The notes under the pieces are model-generated. The model was not told the DNA's origin and searched no databases. It saw only the letters and a list, made by a program, of their open reading frames with translations. Made by a program: the position numbers and the translations under genes. From NCBI GenBank assembly GCA_013203595.1, contig JABMNT010000177.1, forward strand, positions 1-35,442: DNA of 35,442 nt, in the 5' to 3' direction. Within the stretch, counting starts at the first letter, position 1. The number at the start of each line of letters is the position of its first letter. This document shows, one piece after another, positions 1,141 to 9,835 of the stretch. Source of the DNA: Rhodospirillales bacterium. Its GTDB lineage: Bacteria > Pseudomonadota > Alphaproteobacteria > Rhodospirillales > Casp-alpha2.

Positions 1141-1970
1141 CTGCTGCCAGGCGCTTTGGCGTTTGCAAAAAACAGCTGTTTGCCGCCCACCTGATAGTCG
1201 CTGATCGCCTGTTGTCCGGCTTCGGAAACCAGCCAGTCAATAAACGCCTGGCCTTCAGCGGTTTTGATATGGGGGTGTTTGGCGGCGTTGACCAGAATCA
1301 CCCCATAGGGGTTGAACAGCCGGGCATCGCCTTCGGCCAGCAGACGAATGCCTTTCCTGTTCTTGAAACTGAGCCAGGTACCCCGGTCCGACAGGGTGTA
1401 GGCGCTCATGCCCGATGCGGCATTCAGGGTGGCGCCCATGCCGGAGCCGGTTTCCCGGTACCAGGAGCCGGAGACCGTCTTGACGTCGACCCCGGCCAGT
1501 TTCCATAGCCCCAGCTCCTTTTTGTTGGTGCCACTGTCGTCGCCACGCGATGCAAATATCGCCTTTTTTTCGGCTATTTTCGTGAACGCCTGCACGGCAT
1601 CGGTGAGACCCTTAATGCCCGCCGGATCGGCATCGGGGCCAATCACCACAAAATCGTTGTACATGACATCAAGGCGCGCGACGCCCAGGCCATCGGCGAC
1701 AAATTTTTCTTCGGACGGGCGGTGATGGACAAACAGCACATCGGCGTCACCTTTTGCCGCCAGACGGATGGCCTGGCCGGTACCGACGGCAACGACCCGG
1801 ACCTCGATACCGCTTTCGGCGGTGAACTTCGGCAGGATATCCTTGAAAAGGCCGGAGTTCTGCGTCGACGTGGTCGATGCAACCGTAATAAACGGTCCCT
1901 CTGCCCTGGCCAGACCTGGCACGGCCACGGCCATAACCAGGGCCAACGCAAACCATTTTTTAATCATCAT
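1137..1970 (-). CDS. tupA: Tungstate/molybdate ABC transporter substrate-binding protein, TupA-like
   Basis: Periplasmic binding protein of about 277 residues. The open frame runs back to 2063, but the start at 1970 is preferred because GGGAG lies just upstream and a clean signal peptide follows (basic MMIKKW, hydrophobic core, cleavage near ARA-EG). Right after the cleavage site comes VASTTSTQNSGL, the oxyanion-binding motif of TupA-type proteins. The family binds tungstate, some members molybdate, and delivers it to a TupB permease and TupC ATPase. Neither partner is in the window and the downstream side is occupied by a convergent molybdoenzyme gene, so the transporter is either encoded elsewhere or lost. 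The gene is divergent from a ModE-like regulator. Family confidence is high; tungstate versus molybdate specificity is inference. Confidence 0.88.
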   Translation of the reverse strand: MMIKKWFALALVMAVAVPGLARAEGPFITVASTTSTQNSGLFKDILPKFTAESGIEVRVVAVGTGQAIRLAAKGDADVLFVHHRPSEEKFVADGLGVARLDVMYNDFVVIGPDADPAGIKGLTDAVQAFTKIAEKKAIFASRGDDSGTNKKELGLWKLAGVDVKTVSGSWYRETGSGMGATLNAASGMSAYTLSDRGTWLSFKNRKGIRLLAEGDARLFNPYGVILVNAAKHPHIKTAEGQAFIDWLVSEAGQQAISDYQVGGKQLFFANAKAPGSS

Positions 1971-2041
1971 CACTGAACTCCCACATCCGCCGCCGCATAA
2001 ACGGTTTTTTATTTCCAGAATTATCGATAGGATAGTTACGG

Positions 2042-2073
2042 CATATCGGAGCGATATGATCAAATTATCATAT
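2042..2073. promoter_or_regulatory. Two overlapping inverted repeats between tupA and the ModE-like regulator (putative operator)
   Basis: Two perfect 7-bp dyads overlap here. CATATCG (2042-2048), 3-nt spacer, CGATATG (2052-2058); and ATATGAT (2054-2060), 6-nt spacer, ATCATAT (2067-2073). They lie about 75 nt upstream of tupA and 22-53 nt upstream of the regulator's GTG start. The AT-rich arms with a 6-nt spacer resemble the general layout of ModE-type boxes. Autoregulation plus control of tupA by the adjacent regulator is the simplest reading, but it is inferred. Confidence 0.6.
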
Positions 2074-2094
2074 GGGAATCAAGAGGTTTTTTTC

Positions 2095-2472
2095 GTGACT
2101 GAAACCACCCGCCTGAAACGCGACCAGATCAAGCTACGCCTGAAGCTGAAGATCGGTGACGATGCCATTGGTCCGGGCAAAGCCAGTTTGCTGAAAAACA
2201 TCCGAAAACACGGCTCCATTTCAGCCGCCGCCCGGGATATGGGCATCAACTACCGGCGCGCCTGGTTCCTGCTTGAAACCATCAATACAGCGCTGGGCCA
2301 GCCGGTTGTCAAAACCGAAAAAGGCGGCAAGGCCGGGGGTGGTGCCACCCTGACTGCGGCCGGCACTGCAATCATCGATGCCTTCGACGCCTGCAGCCGG
2401 GCCGCCGATGCCAGCACCGAGGACCTGCTGGCCGGCTTGCACCAGTCCCTCGCAACCACCAATAAGGAGTAA
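2095..2472 (+). CDS. ModE-like winged-helix regulator, DNA-binding domain only
   Basis: 125-residue protein. The open frame extends upstream to 1768, but the GTG at 2095 is the better start: AAGAGG sits 8 nt upstream and the coding signature begins there. Residues about 40-62 form the helix-turn-helix (GSISAAARDMGINYRRAWFL), followed by a wing with GGKAGGGATLT at about 77-87; both are hallmarks of the ModE N-terminal (LysR-like) domain. The C-terminal molybdate-binding TOBE/Mop domains of full-length ModE (about 260 residues) are absent, so metal sensing, if any, must occur another way. It is divergent from tupA across a pair of dyads and stops 3 nt before a deacetylase gene that it is probably co-transcribed with. 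The alternative ATG at 2056 would overlap the dyads. Confidence 0.85.
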   Translation: MTETTRLKRDQIKLRLKLKIGDDAIGPGKASLLKNIRKHGSISAAARDMGINYRRAWFLLETINTALGQPVVKTEKGGKAGGGATLTAAGTAIIDAFDACSRAADASTEDLLAGLHQSLATTNKE

Positions 2473-2475
2473 ATC

Positions 2476-3504
2476 GTGAAAATCCTGTTCGATGAACGCC
2501 AGTTGCTGCATGCGCCGGAAAGCTATTTCCGCCAGGGCCGGATCATTGCCCATCCTGAACAGCCGGCCCGCGCGATCCTGTTGCGCGATGCCCTGCTGGC
2601 CGATGGTCATCAACTGACGCAACCCAGAGACCACGGGGCCAGCCCGATCAAGGCCGTGCATGATCCCGCTTATGTGGATTTTTTCGATACCGCCTGGCAG
2701 CGCTGGCAGGCCTACGGAGAACCCGGTACCATCGGCGTTCCCAACTACCACATCAGCCACGGGCGCAACCGCTGCCCGACCGGCATTGTCGGCCAGCTGG
2801 GTTATTATTCGACGGACACCGCCTGCCCGGTTAGCGAGGGGACGAGAGAGGCCATTTACTGGTCAGCGCAATGCGCCATCGACGGCGCCGAACGCCTGAT
2901 CGGCGGGGAAGACCTGATCTACGCCCTGTGCCAACCGCCCGGGCACCATGCCAGCCGCGGCAATTCCAACGGGTTCTGTTATTTCAACAATGCCGCCATC
3001 GCCGCCCATCATTTGCGCCAAAAATTCCAGCGCGTCGCCATTGTCGATATTGACACCCATGCCGGTCAGGGCACCCAGGACATTTTTTACGAGCGTGCCG
3101 ATGTGTTGTTTGCGTCCATCCATGTGGACCCCAGCGACTACCCGCCGTTCTTTGCCTGTTATGCAGACGAGCGGGGCGCCGGCGCCGGTCTGGGCGCGTC
3201 GCTGAACGTGGTGCTCGACAAGGGAACCGGCGAAGCCGCAATTCTAGCCGGGATCGATCAGCTGATCACCGCAACCCGGGATTTTGCTGCAGACGCCGTT
3301 GTTGTTTCCTTAGGATTCGACATGGCGACCGATGACCCGCTGTCGGAACTGGTTTTTTCCGGGGACGGTTTCGCCGCTGCGGCGAGCCGGATCATGGCCC
3401 TTGATCTGCCAACCCTGCTGGTCCAGGAGGGCGGTTATCTGGGGCCCAGTCTGTCCAGCAATGCGGTCCGCTTCCTGCGCGCCGCCGAAGACGCCGTCCG
3501 TTAA
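2476..3504 (+). CDS. Histone deacetylase-superfamily acetylpolyamine amidohydrolase-like enzyme
   Basis: 342-residue zinc-dependent deacetylase of the arginase/deacetylase fold. Start is GTG at 2476 with GGAG 6 nt upstream. Catalytic elements are in place: tandem His in PPGHHA (H157, H158), zinc ligands D193 and H195 in DIDTHAGQGTQ, D282 in GFDMATDDP, and the transition-state Tyr in QEGGY (Y321). This spacing matches the bacterial acetylpolyamine amidohydrolase type (about 340 residues) rather than the AcuC type. The family removes acetyl groups from polyamines or other small acetylated amines in the cytoplasm. It follows the ModE-like regulator by 3 nt, so the two are very likely one transcript; why a Mo/W-type regulator would be linked to deacetylation is unclear. 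Substrate is inferred from family only. Confidence 0.9.
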   Translation: MKILFDERQLLHAPESYFRQGRIIAHPEQPARAILLRDALLADGHQLTQPRDHGASPIKAVHDPAYVDFFDTAWQRWQAYGEPGTIGVPNYHISHGRNRCPTGIVGQLGYYSTDTACPVSEGTREAIYWSAQCAIDGAERLIGGEDLIYALCQPPGHHASRGNSNGFCYFNNAAIAAHHLRQKFQRVAIVDIDTHAGQGTQDIFYERADVLFASIHVDPSDYPPFFACYADERGAGAGLGASLNVVLDKGTGEAAILAGIDQLITATRDFAADAVVVSLGFDMATDDPLSELVFSGDGFAAAASRIMALDLPTLLVQEGGYLGPSLSSNAVRFLRAAEDAVR

Positions 3505-3567: not shown

Positions 3568-4146
3568 TTAACCCCGGTCGCGGTTGTGATGGCGTTCACC
3601 GCGGTCGTGGTCGTGGTCATGGTCTTGGCCTTTACGGCCCTTGCCACGGCCCTGCATATGTTTGCTGAGCTCTTCTTCATCCACATCGCCATCGTTGTCC
3701 ATATCGTGGCTTTTGATGATGCTGCCGAACGGAGCAATAAACTCATCGGTTGTTATAGTGCCGCTGCCATCGTCATCAAGACGCTGGAAGCTGTCGACCA
3801 TGCGCGATTTCATGCGCTCCAGCCACAGCCTTTCAAATTCAGCAAGCGACAGGTTGCCGTCCTTGTCGGTATCGAACTTATCCAGGGTTGCCTTGCGCAC
3901 CCCATCCACTTCGTCCTGCGTAACCGCACCGTCCTTGTTGGCATCATGCTCGTTAAACAGTTTGGTCATTTGTTGACGCATGGCGCCATATCGGCCTTGA
4001 TTGCCGTTACCATGATGGCCGCCTTCGGCCATCATGACAGCGTTGTGGCCGCGCATTTTCTCCTTGGCAACCACAACGGCACTGGCGGAAGCAAAAGCCA
4101 ATCCGGCGGTAACAACAGCGAGGGTAATTTTTGTACGACGTTTCAT
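3568..4146 (-). CDS. Exported EF-hand calcium-binding protein with His/Asp-rich tail
   Basis: 192-residue protein starting at ATG 4146 with AAGGA 8 nt upstream. An N-terminal signal sequence (MKRRTK, then a hydrophobic stretch to about residue 28) predicts export. Four full 12-residue EF-hand loops are seen: D68-E79 (DANKDGAVTQDE), D92-E103 (DTDKDGNLSLAE), D124-E135 (DDDGSGTITTDE) and D148-E159 (DMDNDGDVDEEE), all with acidic position 1 and Glu at 12. The C-terminus is a charged tail with alternating Asp-His. It is divergent from an OmpR-type two-component system whose sensor also carries an acidic, His-rich periplasmic stretch, so divalent cation buffering or sensing is a reasonable guess. 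Unpaired EF-hand proteins of this kind are common in Proteobacteria and mostly uncharacterised. Confidence 0.88.
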   Translation of the reverse strand: MKRRTKITLAVVTAGLAFASASAVVVAKEKMRGHNAVMMAEGGHHGNGNQGRYGAMRQQMTKLFNEHDANKDGAVTQDEVDGVRKATLDKFDTDKDGNLSLAEFERLWLERMKSRMVDSFQRLDDDGSGTITTDEFIAPFGSIIKSHDMDNDGDVDEEELSKHMQGRGKGRKGQDHDHDHDRGERHHNRDRG

Positions 4147-5046: not shown

Positions 5047-6498
5047 ATGGGACTGTTGAAACGCCTCATTCCCAGAAGCCTGTCCGGTCAACTGATCAGC
5101 CTTATCCTGATTGCCCTGTTGGGCGGGCATCTGGTTGCCCTTATCATCCTGGCCGATGAACGCCGCGAAGCCCTCGAATCGGCGACACAAGGCGAGGTCC
5201 TGGCGCGGACAGCAACCATTGCGCGGCTGCTGAACGTCAGCCCGACCGACCTGCAAAACCAGGTCATGGACAATGCCCAGTCCCCGTTTGTCGCGTTTTC
5301 GATCTCCGACGCAAGTGCCACCGCCAATCCGCCGCGATCCCGGCGCGAACTGCTGATCGCCAGCCGGTTGCGCGCCATGCTCGATAACCCGAACGCAGAC
5401 GTCCATGTCAGGCTCGGGTTGAGTAGCCGGTTTTTAAGCCGGGACAGCGAGCCGGAGGAGGAAGAGGATGATCACGCGGAAAAAAACCGAAATGAATTTC
5501 TGAAACATCACCGGGACGGCAATCAGTGGCGGCGGCATTTTCGCTGGGGCATTCAGTTGTCGGTGCAACTGGGCAACGGCCAGTGGCTAAATGCGGCAAC
5601 CCAGACACCCAACCGGAAATCCTCCTGGGCCCTGCAATCCCTGCTGGCGCTCGGCCTTTCGATCCTGATGATCATCGGTGCCGTGATCTTATCAGTTCGC
5701 CGGATCACCCGGCCCCTGGCCACCCTGGCGATGGCCGCCGATGCGGTCGGTCGCGGCGAAACGACGCCGGATATGGCGGAAGAGGGCCCCGAAGACTTGC
5801 AGCGAACGATCCGCGCCTTCAACCGGATGCGCAGCCGCCTCGAAACATTTGTCGAGGACCGGACCAATTTACTGGCCGCCGTTTCCCACGATTTGCGCTC
5901 GCCCGTGACATCACTGCGGCTACGCGCCGAATTTATTGAAGATGAACAGCTGCGCGCCGAGATTCTGGAAACCCTCAGCGAAATGCAGACGATCATTGAG
6001 ACAACGCTGATCTTTGCCCGTGAGGAAACCCGCACCGAGGACACGCGACCGACAGATCTGGCGGCCCTGATCGAAAGCCTGGTCAATGATTTTAAGGATC
6101 AGGGAAAAACCTGCAGCTACACAGGCCCGGAGCGGTTTGTCATCACCGGGCGTCCGGTAAGCCTGAAGCGGGCCATTCGCAACCTGTTGGAAAATGCCAT
6201 TACCTATGGCCTGTCGGCGACAGCGACACTGATCCCGGGCGATTCGAAAAACCGCACTGACCATGCCATTGTCATCGAAGACAGCGGACCCGGCATACCT
6301 GAACAGGAAATCGAGCACATGTTCGAGCCCTTTGTCCGCCTCGAGACCTCGCGCAGCCGGGAAACCGGCGGAATCGGCCTGGGGCTGGCGATTGCCCGAT
6401 CCATTGTGCGCGGCCATGGCGGAGACATCCAGGCGGCAAACAAACCACAGGGCGGGCTCAGGATTACCATTCATTTACCACAATCCGCTGTCGACTGA
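5047..6498 (+). CDS. Membrane sensor histidine kinase, partner of the OmpR-type regulator
   Basis: 483 residues. TM1 about 15-36, periplasmic domain about 37-194, TM2 about 195-216, HAMP about 217-272, DHp with H281 in AAVSHDLRSPVTSL, then a HATPase domain with NLLENAITYG (N box), EDSGPGIPE (G1) and GGIGLGLAIARSIV (G2). The periplasmic domain contains an unusual stretch at about 134-166 that is very acidic first (EPEEEEDDH) and then rich in His and Arg. That composition suggests cation or charge sensing, which is inference. The gene starts 2 nt after the regulator stop, so the two are translationally coupled. An acidic/His-rich sensor beside an exported EF-hand protein makes a divalent metal stimulus plausible. 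Confidence 0.93.
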   Translation: MGLLKRLIPRSLSGQLISLILIALLGGHLVALIILADERREALESATQGEVLARTATIARLLNVSPTDLQNQVMDNAQSPFVAFSISDASATANPPRSRRELLIASRLRAMLDNPNADVHVRLGLSSRFLSRDSEPEEEEDDHAEKNRNEFLKHHRDGNQWRRHFRWGIQLSVQLGNGQWLNAATQTPNRKSSWALQSLLALGLSILMIIGAVILSVRRITRPLATLAMAADAVGRGETTPDMAEEGPEDLQRTIRAFNRMRSRLETFVEDRTNLLAAVSHDLRSPVTSLRLRAEFIEDEQLRAEILETLSEMQTIIETTLIFAREETRTEDTRPTDLAALIESLVNDFKDQGKTCSYTGPERFVITGRPVSLKRAIRNLLENAITYGLSATATLIPGDSKNRTDHAIVIEDSGPGIPEQEIEHMFEPFVRLETSRSRETGGIGLGLAIARSIVRGHGGDIQAANKPQGGLRITIHLPQSAVD

Positions 6499-6527
6499 CG
6501 GCGCTCGCGCCGATGTAACTTTTTTTT
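6499..6527 (+). terminator. Short GC hairpin with distant T-run after the kinase gene
   Basis: CGGCG (6499-6503), loop CTCG, CGCCG (6508-6512) begins directly after the kinase stop codon. A run of eight T follows at 6520-6527, but 7 nt separate it from the stem, so termination efficiency is doubtful. Confidence 0.4.
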
Positions 6528-6602
6528 GATTGGTGATAATCGGCGCCAATGCGTACATATAGGGGGAACGCTCGATACCCTATGCATCAAGGAGGCGCAG
6601 TC

Positions 6603-7562
6603 ATGCCGGAAGGCACGTTACCCGAAATGAATTACCTTGCGCCAACCAAATTCCAGGATCCCATGGTAACGGCAAAAGGCGAGGAACGTGCGGTGGTTGC
6701 CCTGACCCATCTGCGCACACTCTGGTTCAACACCGGCAGTCTGTGCAATATCACCTGCGCCAACTGCTATATGGAAAGCAGTCCAAAAAATGACGCCCTG
6801 GCCTATCTGTCGCTGGCCGATGTCACCCGCTATCTGGACGAGATCGCCGATCAGGGTTACGCGGTTGAGGAAATCGCCTTCACCGGTGGCGAACCCTTTA
6901 TGAATCCCGATATGCTGGCCATGCTCGAACAGGTTTTAGCGCGTGGCTTCAAAGCCCTGGTGCTGACCAATGCCATGAAACCCATGCGCCATAAGCGCCA
7001 TGGGCTGAGCAAGCTGCAAAGCCAGTTTGGGGCGCAATTGAGCCTTCGTGTTTCCATGGATCATTACACACAAACCCGGCACGAGACGGAACGCGGCCCC
7101 GGAAGCTGGGCACCCATGCTTGAAGGACTGCGCTGGTTGTCGAAAAGCGGCTTCAGTCTGGCCGTTGCCGGGCGAACCTGCTGGGATGAAGACCAGGAGT
7201 CGGCACGCAACGGCTACGCCCACCTGTTTCAGTCCGAAAACATTGCCATTGACGTCAACGCGCCGGGGCAGCTGGTTCTGTTCCCGGAAATGGACGGCAA
7301 ACTGGACGTCCCGGAAATTACCGTCAGTTGCTGGGAAATTCTGGGTGTCGCGCCGGAAACCATGATGTGCGCGTCGTCGCGGATGATCGTCAAACGCAAG
7401 GGGGCCGCCAGCCCGGTTGTCGTTCCCTGTACCCTGTTACCCTACGATCCGGCTTTTGAAATGGGCGAGGATCTGGCCCTGTCACCCAAAAAGGTTCACC
7501 TTAATCACCCCCATTGCGCCAAGTTTTGTGTGCTTGGCGGCGCCTCGTGCAGTCCGGACTGA
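6603..7562 (+). CDS. Radical SAM protein with Cys-rich SPASM/Twitch-like C-terminus
   Basis: 319 residues from the ATG at 6603, chosen over the in-frame ATG at 6549 because a strong AAGGAGG lies 7 nt upstream of it. The radical SAM core has C48-x3-C52-x2-C55 (LCNITCANC), which binds the 4Fe-4S cluster that cleaves S-adenosylmethionine, and the SAM-binding GGEP at 95-98 (FTGGEPFMNPDM). Further Cys at 256, 276, 305, 309 and 316 (HPHCAKFCVLGGASC at the end) are spaced like a SPASM or Twitch auxiliary cluster, suggesting a second Fe-S cluster. Such enzymes modify peptides or small molecules. A metallophosphoesterase-like gene starts 2 nt downstream, clearly one operon. No precursor peptide gene is visible beside them. 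Substrate unknown. Confidence 0.88.
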   Translation: MPEGTLPEMNYLAPTKFQDPMVTAKGEERAVVALTHLRTLWFNTGSLCNITCANCYMESSPKNDALAYLSLADVTRYLDEIADQGYAVEEIAFTGGEPFMNPDMLAMLEQVLARGFKALVLTNAMKPMRHKRHGLSKLQSQFGAQLSLRVSMDHYTQTRHETERGPGSWAPMLEGLRWLSKSGFSLAVAGRTCWDEDQESARNGYAHLFQSENIAIDVNAPGQLVLFPEMDGKLDVPEITVSCWEILGVAPETMMCASSRMIVKRKGAASPVVVPCTLLPYDPAFEMGEDLALSPKKVHLNHPHCAKFCVLGGASCSPD

Positions 7563-7564
7563 CA

Positions 7565-8449
7565 ATGACCACACCCTCCATCCTGAATCTCGGCTCGCTG
7601 GATGAGCCGGTCCTGTTGTTTGGCGGGCCCTATTCAAACCTGCAGGCAACCGAAGCCCTGATGCGCAGCGCTGCGGCGCTGGGGATCGCTGCGGCCAACA
7701 TCATCTGCACCGGTGACGTGGTTGCCTATGCCGGAGACCCGGCGGCAACGACGGACCTGGTTATGGGATCCGGCATGCAGGTGGTCATGGGGAATTGTGA
7801 AGAATCCTTTGGCTTTGAGGGTGATGATTGCGGATGTGGTTTTGATGCCGGCAGCGCCTGCGATCTGTTGTCCCGCCAGTGGTACGCCCATGCCAACAGC
7901 ACCCTTACACCGGCCCACCGGGCCTGGATGCGAAGCCTGCCCCGCCAGATCCGCTTTGCCATGTCCGGTCAGCATGTGGCCGTCATCCACGGCGGCATTG
8001 ACGATCTGAGCCGCTGGATATTCGCCTCCACGCCCGCCGCCATCAAGCGCCAGGAAATCGCGACCCTGGCCGGCTCGGGTGCCGTTGACGTTGTCGTTGG
8101 CGGCCATTGCGGGCTGCCCTTTGCCGACGATCTGGCTGATGTTTTATGGCTGAACGCCGGTGTTATCGGGATGCCCGCCAACGACGGCACTGCCAGAACC
8201 TGGTTCACGGCGCTGACACCGGTGCGTGACGGGATCCGGGTTGATCTGCATGCCCTTTCCTATGACCATCAGGCGGCAGCCGATCGCATGAACAGCCTCC
8301 ATCTCGCCGGCGCCTATGCAAAAACCCTGGTTGATGGATACTGGCCGAACATGGATGTTTTGCCCGAAGGTGAGCGCCATCAGGCCGGGGTCGCGATCAT
8401 GCCCTGGTCCATCCACCATCAGAGCCGCGCACGATCAGCCGCCGAATAA
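7565..8449 (+). CDS. Metallophosphoesterase-fold protein with incomplete metal site
   Basis: 294 residues, start ATG 2 nt after the radical SAM stop. The fold of calcineurin-like phosphoesterases (YfcE/MJ0936 type) is recognisable from the series TGDVVAYAGDP (50-58), VVMGNCEES (73-81), VIHGGIDDLSRW (140-151) and VVVGGHCG (176-183). Several metal ligands are changed: the usual N-terminal DxHGN is GPYSN (Asp and His replaced by G21 and Y23), and the usual GHTH is GHCG (second His lost). A family-atypical Cys cluster follows the GNCEE motif (C78, C89, C91, C99). These changes predict either altered metal use or a non-catalytic role such as substrate binding or Fe-S/metal handling for the radical SAM partner. 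That functional reading is inference. Confidence 0.78.
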   Translation: MTTPSILNLGSLDEPVLLFGGPYSNLQATEALMRSAAALGIAAANIICTGDVVAYAGDPAATTDLVMGSGMQVVMGNCEESFGFEGDDCGCGFDAGSACDLLSRQWYAHANSTLTPAHRAWMRSLPRQIRFAMSGQHVAVIHGGIDDLSRWIFASTPAAIKRQEIATLAGSGAVDVVVGGHCGLPFADDLADVLWLNAGVIGMPANDGTARTWFTALTPVRDGIRVDLHALSYDHQAAADRMNSLHLAGAYAKTLVDGYWPNMDVLPEGERHQAGVAIMPWSIHHQSRARSAAE

Positions 8450-8523
8450 GTTATTCTCGGATAAAAGGAATACCGGCTGATCCGTGGAATCCATTAATAA
8501 TTCGACGAAACGGGAATCCAACC

Positions 8524-8553
8524 TTGTGATAAAACGCCATCTACAGGTACCAT
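8524..8553 (+). promoter_or_regulatory. Possible apaG promoter
   Basis: TTGTGA (8524-8529), 18-nt spacer, TACCAT (8548-8553) lies about 50 nt upstream of the apaG start. The match to sigma-70 elements is only fair, and this is read by eye. Confidence 0.3.
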
Positions 8554-8604
8554 ACACGGACAAACTGGGATTGCCCGAACAGGCAGAAGGAATGACTGAA
8601 GACC

Positions 8605-9012
8605 ATGCCAGCGAAACCTATGTACGAACAAACAACCCGCGGAGTCTCCATTTCCGTCAATCCGGAATATCTGGAAGACCAGTCGGAGCCTGCCAATGGC
8701 CGGTTTACCTGGGCCTATCATGTGCAGATCGAAAACGTCGGGAATCAATCCGTACAAATTCTCATCCGTCACTGGAAAATAACCAATATCAAAGGCGAGT
8801 CCCACGAAGTGGTCGGCGACGGGCTGGTCGGCCAGCAACCGGTTCTCCAGCCTGGCGATGTCTTTGAATATACCAGCGGTACACCGCTCTCGACACCATC
8901 TGGTTTCATGTCGGGCAGTTTTCATGTGGTCGCCGAAGGTGGCGATGTCTTTGATGCCGTGGTTCCGGCGTTTTCACTCGACAGCCCGCAACAGCGCCGG
9001 GCGCTGCACTAA
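8605..9012 (+). CDS. apaG: ApaG family protein
   Basis: 135 residues, close to the usual 125-135 of ApaG. The single immunoglobulin/Fn3-like domain is recognised by YHVQIENVGNQSVQILIRHW at about 38-57, followed by ITNIKGESHEVVGDGLVGQQ and LQPGDVFEYTSGTPL, and the glycine-rich end MSGSFHVVAEGG. ApaG was named from its link to diadenosine tetraphosphate and Co2+ resistance phenotypes in enterobacteria; the domain is also found in eukaryotic F-box proteins, and its biochemical role is unsettled. It is not next to ksgA or apaH here. The start at 8605 has only a distant AGAAGGA; the internal ATG at 8620 is an alternative. Confidence 0.92.
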   Translation: MPAKPMYEQTTRGVSISVNPEYLEDQSEPANGRFTWAYHVQIENVGNQSVQILIRHWKITNIKGESHEVVGDGLVGQQPVLQPGDVFEYTSGTPLSTPSGFMSGSFHVVAEGGDVFDAVVPAFSLDSPQQRRALH

Positions 9013-9106
9013 TCAGGAAACCCGGTGGCGGGTCATCGCTTTGCAAAACCGGGGTTGATTGCCTGACCAAATACCGGGCGGCGGTCCTGCGGGCTGTTCA
9101 AATCTT

Positions 9107-9146
9107 GACGTCAGGGATATATAGTAGCATTTCCATTATCGACGTC
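9107..9146. promoter_or_regulatory. Pair of GACGTC palindromes upstream of folE
   Basis: GACGTC occurs at 9107-9112 and again at 9141-9146, 34 bp apart, in the 60 nt before the folE start. The first is within CTTGACGTCAGG. They could be half sites of a regulator or chance; no further support. Confidence 0.25.
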
Positions 9147-9168
9147 TGTAATGTGAAGGAACTGGAAA

Positions 9169-9792
9169 GTGGATATACCTGTCGATCGGTCTGATATTGA
9201 TAAGCCTACGCGCCAGCAGGCCGAAGCGGCTATCCGAACTCTTATCAAATGGGCCGGCGACGATCCCGATCGGGAAGGGCTGGTCGATACCCCGAGCCGC
9301 GTTGTCCGCTCCTATGAGGAATTTTTCCAGGGTTATGCGGCTGATCCCGAGGCCCTGCTGGAACGGACCTTCGAGGAAGTTGAAGGCTACGACGAAATCG
9401 TGCTGCTGCGTGATATCCGCTTTGAATCCCATTGCGAACATCACATGGCCCCGATTATCGGGCGCGCCCATATCGCCTATTTGCCGCACCGGCGGGTTGT
9501 CGGCATATCAAAACTGGCGCGGCTGGTCGAAGCCTATGCCAAGCGTTTGCAGATTCAGGAAAAAATGACCTCGCAAATCGCCAACACCATCAATGAAATA
9601 TTGCGCCCGAAAGGGACAGCCGTGGTCATTGAAGCGTCGCACCAGTGCATGACCACACGTGGCGTTCACAAACCGGGGGTTTCCATGGTCACCAGTACAA
9701 TGTTGGGGGAATTTCGGGACAATCCGTCGACCCGACGCGAATTTCTGAATATGGTTGGCAGTCCCAGTCATCGTGAAGCCCCTTTCACCTGA
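9169..9792 (+). CDS. folE: GTP cyclohydrolase I (type IA)
   Basis: 207 residues, GTG start with AAGGA 8 nt upstream. It converts GTP to 7,8-dihydroneopterin triphosphate, the first step of folate (and in many bacteria queuosine-type) pterin supply. The zinc ligands are C89 and H92 in SHCEHHM and C160 in [13 protein letters not shown]; their spacing equals that of the E. coli enzyme (C110, H113, C181). [20 protein letters not shown] is the conserved helix of the decameric core. It stands alone, with 156 nt before it and trkH downstream on its own likely promoter. The Cys-Cys-His zinc site marks it as the zinc-dependent form. Confidence 0.96.
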
Positions 9793-9835
9793 CCTCCCAG
9801 ATCACTGATCATGGCCTCGGGCATATGCATCCATT

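Follow-up and report, generated by a model that had tools for sequence, protein, structure and literature searches.

Much of the organoarsenic in the sea is in the form of arsenosugars. The bacterial steps toward them are known from the cyanobacterial enzymes ArsM and ArsS (PMC8552651, PMC12159101), arsenic being adenosylated by ArsS, a radical S-adenosylmethionine (SAM) enzyme (PMC12159101), which in Synechocystis works together with ArsM (PMC8552651). The present analysis concerns a gene pair in a stretch of 35,442 nucleotides from a Rhodospirillales bacterium (contig JABMNT010000177.1; the whole stretch is hereafter the window), encoding a radical SAM protein (rSAM) and a phosphoesterase (PE) with an altered metal site. 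The two proteins are almost certainly functionally linked, and the results suggest that many marine and soil bacteria pair or fuse such an ArsS-like rSAM with PE, often together with an importer, in an undescribed variant of organoarsenic metabolism.

Conservation, adjacency and fusion of the gene pair

Both open reading frames were recovered where the initial annotation had placed them (Table 1), with 2 nt between the stop codon of rSAM and the ATG of PE. For rSAM the start at 6603 is preferred, with an AGGAGG ribosome site at 6590-6595, within a longer open reading frame that opens at 6549. That the two genes form one unit was borne out by a first set of loci, in which they were adjacent in 20/20 cases (one of these, L009, being the window itself), and by a larger set of 80 PE loci in named genomes, taken from at least 540 PE relatives among 84,980 species genomes. 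Nine of the 80 loci, including that of Bradyrhizobium BTAi1, encode both proteins in one stop-free frame, PE first and then rSAM. A natural fusion is also present in a Ferrovibrio sp. metagenome-assembled genome (L089). The pair was found past close relatives, in loci titled Rhodospirillales, Acetobacteraceae, Hyphomicrobiales, Bradyrhizobium and Azospirillum.

An rSAM gene lies within 800 bp of PE in 42/80 loci, on the same strand in 41 of them, and at 1.6 kb in one more. A gene for an SSS symporter lies within 2.5 kb of PE in 28 loci, two of which also contain rSAM, leaving 26/80 loci with the symporter gene but no rSAM in the locus. PhnD/PhnE genes were found in six loci, three of them with rSAM, and eight loci had neither rSAM, SSS nor PhnD/PhnE, five of these with less than 4 kb of DNA upstream. 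The initial annotation had named PE homologues that lack the radical partner but share the substitutions and a known activity as evidence against a joint system. The substitutions do occur in PE proteins encoded beside the SSS gene, but 19 of the 21 PE genomes searched carry a radical enzyme elsewhere, which is a gamma-type rSAM in ten, a window-type rSAM in five and ArsS in four, the last assigned by 60-65% identity to the ArsS of L276 and not by the ArsS model.

Co-occurrence was counted in 100 relatives of the window genome, taking PE as present at E 0.001 or better, fragments included, and rSAM at E 1e-100 or better, with G029 and G060, which have only a lower-scoring rSAM fragment, counted as lacking it. 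By this measure rSAM was present in 44/45 genomes with PE and in 31/55 without it; within the window's own family the counts were 36/36 and 9/12 (p 0.013).

Metal site, cysteines and fold of the phosphoesterase

PE matches the Pfam Metallophos_2 domain over its gathering score (37 bits). Its motif changes were confirmed as first read: GGPYSN takes the place of the DxHGN region and, across homologues, GH(C/S/A)G that of GHTH, with GD51 and GNCEE unchanged. In the alignments, GPYSN falls on IHGN of SapH and on SDVHAN of the Sphaerobacter enzyme 3rqz, and GHxG stands where these two carry GHIH or GHTH. G20, G21, Y23 and N25 are invariant in 63/63 aligned relatives. Positions were assigned to metal sites 1 and 2 by the usual scheme for this fold, and by that scheme PE has lost site 1 but has kept D51, N77, H142 and H181 of site 2 in all 63 relatives. 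The description as a metal-ligand-deficient enzyme therefore holds for site 1 but not for site 2, the ligands of which are all present. The Cys group C78, C89, C91 and C99, also pointed out in the initial annotation, is invariant in a narrower set of 20/20 homologues; in the 63 relatives, C78 is kept in at least 90% and the other three are invariant.

The AlphaFold2 model of PE (predicted local distance difference test, pLDDT, 94.4) has a SapH-like predicted fold, with Z 26.4 and a root mean square deviation (rmsd) of 2.7 over 245 aligned positions to SapH (3qfm). The model also superposes on YfcE, the comparison initially proposed, with Z 15.9, which makes SapH the nearer structure. SapH and its close relatives were the best predicted fold matches, and VPS29 was also among them. 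A sequence search of solved structures with PE alone found no match, and a profile search returned 3rqz and 3qfm only. Membership of the YfcE family (TIGR00040) was rejected, the score being 21.4 bits against a cut-off of 56.25.

A diverged PE homologue was found in three genomes (L175-L177), aligning over 247 columns (E 9e-11). Its signature reads NGD, GN, CGC, HGD and THTC in 3/3, with GGLYGN in 2/3 (the third sequence is incomplete), that is, the same loss of site 1. It is accompanied by SSS, radical SAM and VTT-MerA-like fusion genes, and in L176 an ectB gene over its cut-off lies near PE.

The radical SAM protein, its genomic company and importers

rSAM matches Pfam Radical_SAM with 50.9 bits. 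The extra cysteines reported initially (C256, C276, C305, C309 and C316, numbered from the 6603 start), and likewise C243, are invariant in 20/20 homologues. A MAFFT alignment that included four ArsS proteins and eight gamma-type relatives showed that all of these cysteines except C243 conform to the ArsS pattern MC...C(T/D)...HCx2-3C...SC. This pattern is compatible with the SPASM/Twitch-like C-terminus proposed at first, as are the predicted fold matches of the rSAM domain in a modelled fusion protein: BlsE (Z 19.5, rmsd 3.2, 248 aligned), SkfB (Z 18.1) and SuiB (Z 17.9). The alignment of the gamma-type rSAM with ArsS spans its length (276 columns, E 5e-10). The best NCBIfam match of the window rSAM is the Rv1681 family (NF049973; 94.1 bits, cut-off 380), and membership of either the curated ArsS or the Rv1681 family was rejected, since the scores are far under the cut-offs.

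The distribution of rSAM relative to ArsS was followed in 299 genomes of the phylum, counting window- or gamma-type rSAM at E 1e-40 or better and ArsS over its cut-off. ArsS was found in 0/30 genomes with rSAM and in 77/269 without it. A 350-amino-acid (aa) ArsM-like protein is encoded in 28 of the 299 genomes, 11 with rSAM, 16 with ArsS and one with neither, that is, in 11/30 genomes with rSAM and 17/269 without. Since rSAM never occurs with ArsS, and 27 of the 28 genomes with the ArsM-like protein have one or the other, rSAM looks like an alternative ArsS, and its function is probably ArsS-like.

The neighbours of rSAM in related genomes point in the same direction. In L170, rSAM lies 1.5 kb from a gene for an ArsM-like methyltransferase; a MerA-like reductase gene separates the two, and genes of TIGR04282 type and GT2 follow on the far side. 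In three gamma relatives (L172-L174) the ArsM-like gene adjoins rSAM in 3/3, the proteins of L172 and L173 having 58-59% identity to that of L170. A gene for 5'-methylthioadenosine (MTA) phosphorylase adjoins rSAM in L173 (251 bits) and L174 (281 bits; cut-off 275), and is also found beside it in L238-L240 and L252. L174 has in addition a TIGR04282-like gene near rSAM (102 bits, cut-off 134). The order in Neptuniibacter is TIGR04282-like (128 against 134 bits in L239), rSAM, MTA phosphorylase and TIGR04283-like (156 bits in L238, cut-off 182), and a VTT-MerA-like fusion is encoded close by. The clusters of L170, L172-L174 and L238-L240 thus hold differing subsets of ArsM-like, MTA phosphorylase, TIGR04282/TIGR04283, VTT and MerA-like genes. 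One region of a Roseomonas plasmid carries two radical SAM genes, PhnDEC, PE, DUF547, a flavin adenine dinucleotide (FAD) oxidoreductase and VTT genes, together with TIGR04282 over its cut-off and a TIGR04283-like gene (165 against 182 bits). The recurring third partners that the initial annotation had suggested looking for are an SSS symporter, PhnDCE, MerA-like/VTT proteins and TIGR04282/TIGR04283 proteins. TIGR04282 occurs in 69/75 relatives with rSAM and 10/25 without, a difference that is not significant inside the window's own family.

In the window genome, a TIGR04282 gene (148 bits, cut-off 134) is located on contig C252, beside a gene for a TIGR04283 glycosyltransferase (L204:6310-6978; 211 bits, cut-off 182). 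The two occur together away from arsenic clusters (L204, C252, 6310-7583), and likewise in L206, L207 and L209. The curated 'arsenosugar' names of these two families may be too narrow, because the genes are paired outside arsenic clusters in several genomes.

PE is also associated with importers. An SSS symporter (E 1e-20 or better) was found in 21/45 relatives with PE and 2/55 without it, and the association holds both inside and outside the window's family (p 0.009 and 1e-4 in the two strata). The symporter of the window genome lies on another contig (C257, L265) and has 57% identity to the Neptuniibacter protein. In some Acetobacteraceae, a Methylobacterium metagenome-assembled genome and Bradyrhizobium BTAi1, the locus has PhnD/PhnE instead of SSS. 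A Roseomonas-type PhnD was found in 0/100 window relatives at E 1e-40, a search that lacked a positive control there and so shows little. The importers suggest that a substrate or precursor is taken up; since PE is so often found with SSS or PhnDCE, this compound is probably imported and not made from arsenite.

Three further observations concern individual loci. An apparent SSS-PE fusion in G057 (an 891-aa frame) was rejected, the gene calls in L187 being separate (7498-8907 and 8922-9803). In L272 (G054), a symporter of the same group is encoded at 5957-7342, with 60% identity to that of L089; PE and rSAM were not found in that genome. In the Roseomonas locus L139, the second radical SAM gene (7411-8790, 459 aa) overlaps the start of the window-type rSAM gene, and its best NCBIfam match is TrsS (100 bits, cut-off 490).

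The features of the pair in the window are collected in Table 1. The hairpin between the sensor kinase gene and the pair was seen by reading the sequence and is absent from the pattern-scan output; it is a possible terminator that would set the rSAM-PE pair apart as its own unit. Among the other neighbours, FolE recurs in 13/80 PE loci and ApaG in 10/80, according to gene clusters of the neighbourhoods, in loci titled Rhodospirillales, Rhodospirillaceae or Alphaproteobacteria, bar one titled Nitrospira. Response regulators flank PE in eight of the 80 loci and kinases in six, both generic families. All four were set aside as shared neighbourhood and not as partners. Elsewhere in the window, an EF-hand protein is encoded at 3568-4146 on the minus strand, with lanmodulin LanM as its best NCBIfam match (48 bits, cut-off 135), and could be a lanthanide or calcium binder. 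A ModE-type molybdate repressor domain (1768-2472, plus strand; 87 bits, cut-off 98.5) adjoins a histone-deacetylase-family gene at 2476-3504.

Table 1. Features of the rSAM-PE pair and its upstream border in the window
Feature	Position	Strand	Remark
Hairpin CGGCG-CTCG-CGCCG + T8	6499..6527	+	3' of sensor kinase gene, 5' of the pair
Radical SAM gene, ArsS-like, window-type (rSAM)	6603..7562	+	TGA stop at 7560-7562
CX3CX2C motif (CNITCANC), radical SAM [4Fe-4S] cluster	6744..6767	+	Invariant in 20/20 homologues
C-terminal auxiliary Cys set of rSAM	7329..7550	+	Codons at 7329, 7368, 7428, 7515, 7527, 7548
Phosphoesterase gene (PE), degenerate metallophosphoesterase, SapH/Ap4A-hydrolase fold (predicted)	7565..8449	+	ATG at 7565
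GGPYSN replacing DxHGN region, D to G21, H to Y23	7622..7639	+	Site-1 ligands gone
D51 (GD motif), kept site-2 ligand	7715..7717	+	Invariant in 63/63
N77-C78 of GNCE, site-2 ligand and first Cys	7793..7798	+	N77 invariant; C78 in at least 90% of 63
Cys cluster C89-x-C91-x7-C99	7829..7861	+	All three invariant in 63/63
H142 (HG motif), kept site-2 ligand	7988..7990	+	Invariant in 63/63
H181-C-G183, GHxH with its first His present and Gly for the second	8105..8113	+	H181 and G183 invariant in 63/63

Proposed role and comparison with described systems

The pathway that the initial annotation could not name is likely arsenosugar-type organoarsenic metabolism, and we tentatively favour the reading that the pair is an importer-linked accessory of such a pathway, in which PE acts on the substrate or product of rSAM. 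In this proposal rSAM would be a second, non-orthologous type of ArsS, joining the SAM-derived 5'-deoxyadenosyl radical to a methylated metalloid in its trivalent form, dimethylarsenite being the likeliest, to give a 5'-modified adenosine. MTA phosphorylase acts on 5'-methylthioadenosine, and its gene beside rSAM therefore fits such a product; the MTA phosphorylase relative, the CofC-like TIGR04282 protein and the TIGR04283-type glycosyltransferase of the related clusters would then lead to an arsenosugar-type compound. PE would be a dedicated partner and, as its fusion to rSAM in some species suggests, would act directly on the substrate or product of rSAM. It may bind a soft metalloid ligand through its cysteines, cleave a phosphoester on the adduct with a single metal, or both, and the importer (SSS or PhnDCE) would bring in the substrate or precursor.

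A number of observations weigh against this proposal. The window rSAM scores 57.4 bits against the ArsS model (TIGR04167), with a cut-off of 300, it has no match to DUF3641 at E 0.01, a domain present in the ArsS of L276, and by hhalign the window-type profile aligns with ArsS only over its N-terminal 152 columns. Outside the window's family, the co-occurrence of rSAM with PE (8/9 against 22/43 genomes) has a p of 0.062, and the co-occurrence counts ignore phylogeny. Two of the 21 PE genomes searched show neither radical enzyme, and in the remaining four PE genomes of the phylum sample rSAM is present but unlinked, at distances of roughly 3 kb to 179 kb. The fusion model (predicted template modelling score, pTM, 0.65) does not establish a docking of PE and rSAM. 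In the window genome, a draft of 288 contigs, the best ArsM match has E 1.5e-6 and none was found at 1e-40, and the TIGR04282/TIGR04283 pair lies outside any arsenic cluster; for these two reasons, we infer arsenic from relatives. Finally, the 350-aa ArsM-like protein is absent from genomes with PE (0/48 against 13/55 without, among 103 genomes with rSAM), and any ArsM (E 1e-21 or better) is found in 8/44 rSAM-positive relatives with PE against 19/31 without. However, this exclusion was not significant in either stratum (p 0.58 and 0.20), and Kistimonas (L077, L243) carries both PE and ArsM, so that a firm rule was rejected and import in place of methylation is only a hint.

A more specific form of the proposal, possible but doubtful, would be an organoarsenic pathway that does without a methyltransferase and is fed by an importer. 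A methylated arsenical would enter through SSS or PhnDCE, and PE, with one metal site exchanged for a Cys trap, would keep the trivalent arsenical beside its remaining metal and hand it directly to the attached rSAM for adenosylation toward an arsenosugar.

As an alternative, the same radical chemistry could be followed by a downstream PE reaction on a nucleotide or sugar-phosphate intermediate, PE being a phosphatase or phosphodiesterase with one metal and the Cys cluster structural (Zn or Fe-S). SapH, the nearest fold, is a diadenosine tetraphosphate (Ap4A) hydrolase/phosphodiesterase, the four site-2 ligands are invariant, and phosphate intermediates exist in the pathway if MTA phosphorylase acts. 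However, the usual two-metal phosphoesterase mechanism needs site 1, which is lost in 63/63 relatives, and a structural role does not need three invariant cysteines close in sequence to the ligand N77; we consider this account rather unlikely.

It is also unlikely that the pathway uses an element or group other than arsenic (selenium, phosphorus, antimony), or a substrate that is no metalloid, the ArsM- and ArsS-like names being misleading. This would agree with the scores of the 350-aa ArsM-like protein (171 and 184 bits), which are under the curated cut-off of 263 bits for arsenite methyltransferase, with its presence in just 3/75 relatives with rSAM and 11/30 rSAM genomes of the phylum sample, and with the PhnDCE-type importers at some loci. 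On the other hand, the same protein accompanies canonical ArsS in 16/28 genomes, and an ordinary ArsM or the ArsM-like protein was found in 19/31 relatives with rSAM but without PE; ordinary (short-type) ArsM was checked in five of nine fetched loci, with 5/5 over the cut-off.

That PE has no catalytic activity and serves rSAM as a scaffold or sensor, as its lost site 1 and the match to VPS29 might suggest (VPS29 and other proteins of this fold serve as scaffolds), is very improbable given the invariant D51, N77, H142, H181 and cysteines, which speak for a bound ligand or catalysis, and the occurrence of PE beside SSS in loci without rSAM.

If the importer-linked arsenosugar-type pathway is correct, many Alpha- and Gammaproteobacteria would hold a parallel version of arsenosugar metabolism, with its own radical enzyme, a repurposed PE and an importer, and could recycle methylated arsenic produced by others. 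It would also show how the fold of a two-metal hydrolase can be remodelled to hold a single metal and a Cys cluster. Three proteins of the system are open to testing, two of them joined in a natural fusion.

No description of a radical SAM-metallophosphoesterase system was found in the best-matching titles and abstract openings of the open-licence literature, and the comparison with described systems suggests radical chemistry of the known arsenosugar type with a PE partner that is undescribed as far as searched. The arsinothricin pathway (ArsQML) also combines a radical SAM enzyme, an ArsM and a transporter to make a C-As bond, but the group that its ArsL transfers is 3-amino-3-carboxypropyl, the conserved cysteines of ArsL number only three, and no phosphoesterase appears in the accessible part of its description (PMC8552651). 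The families NF049985 and NF049973 (Rv1680 and Rv1681) are named as substrate-binding-protein-like and radical SAM, recalling PhnD beside rSAM in Roseomonas, but rSAM scores only 94 bits against the Rv1681 cut-off of 380. The Rv1680 and Rv1681 genes are adjacent. YfcE-like phosphodiesterases (TIGR00040) share the Metallophos_2 domain with PE, which scores under the YfcE cut-off, is longer and lacks site 1. The asymmetric Ap4A hydrolase SapH/Spr1479 resembles PE in its predicted fold and in the GD, GN, H and GH motifs, whereas PE lacks the site-1 ligands and the second His of GHxH, has an extra Cys cluster and is tied to a radical SAM enzyme. The closest system is that of ArsS: rSAM shares its radical SAM core and C-terminal Cys pattern, is found in its place, and in some relatives neighbours ArsM-like, TIGR04282/TIGR04283, MerA-like and VTT genes. 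It differs from ArsS in scoring under the family cut-off, with no DUF3641 found in it, in being usually without the 350-aa ArsM-like protein and linked to an importer, and in being paired or fused with PE.

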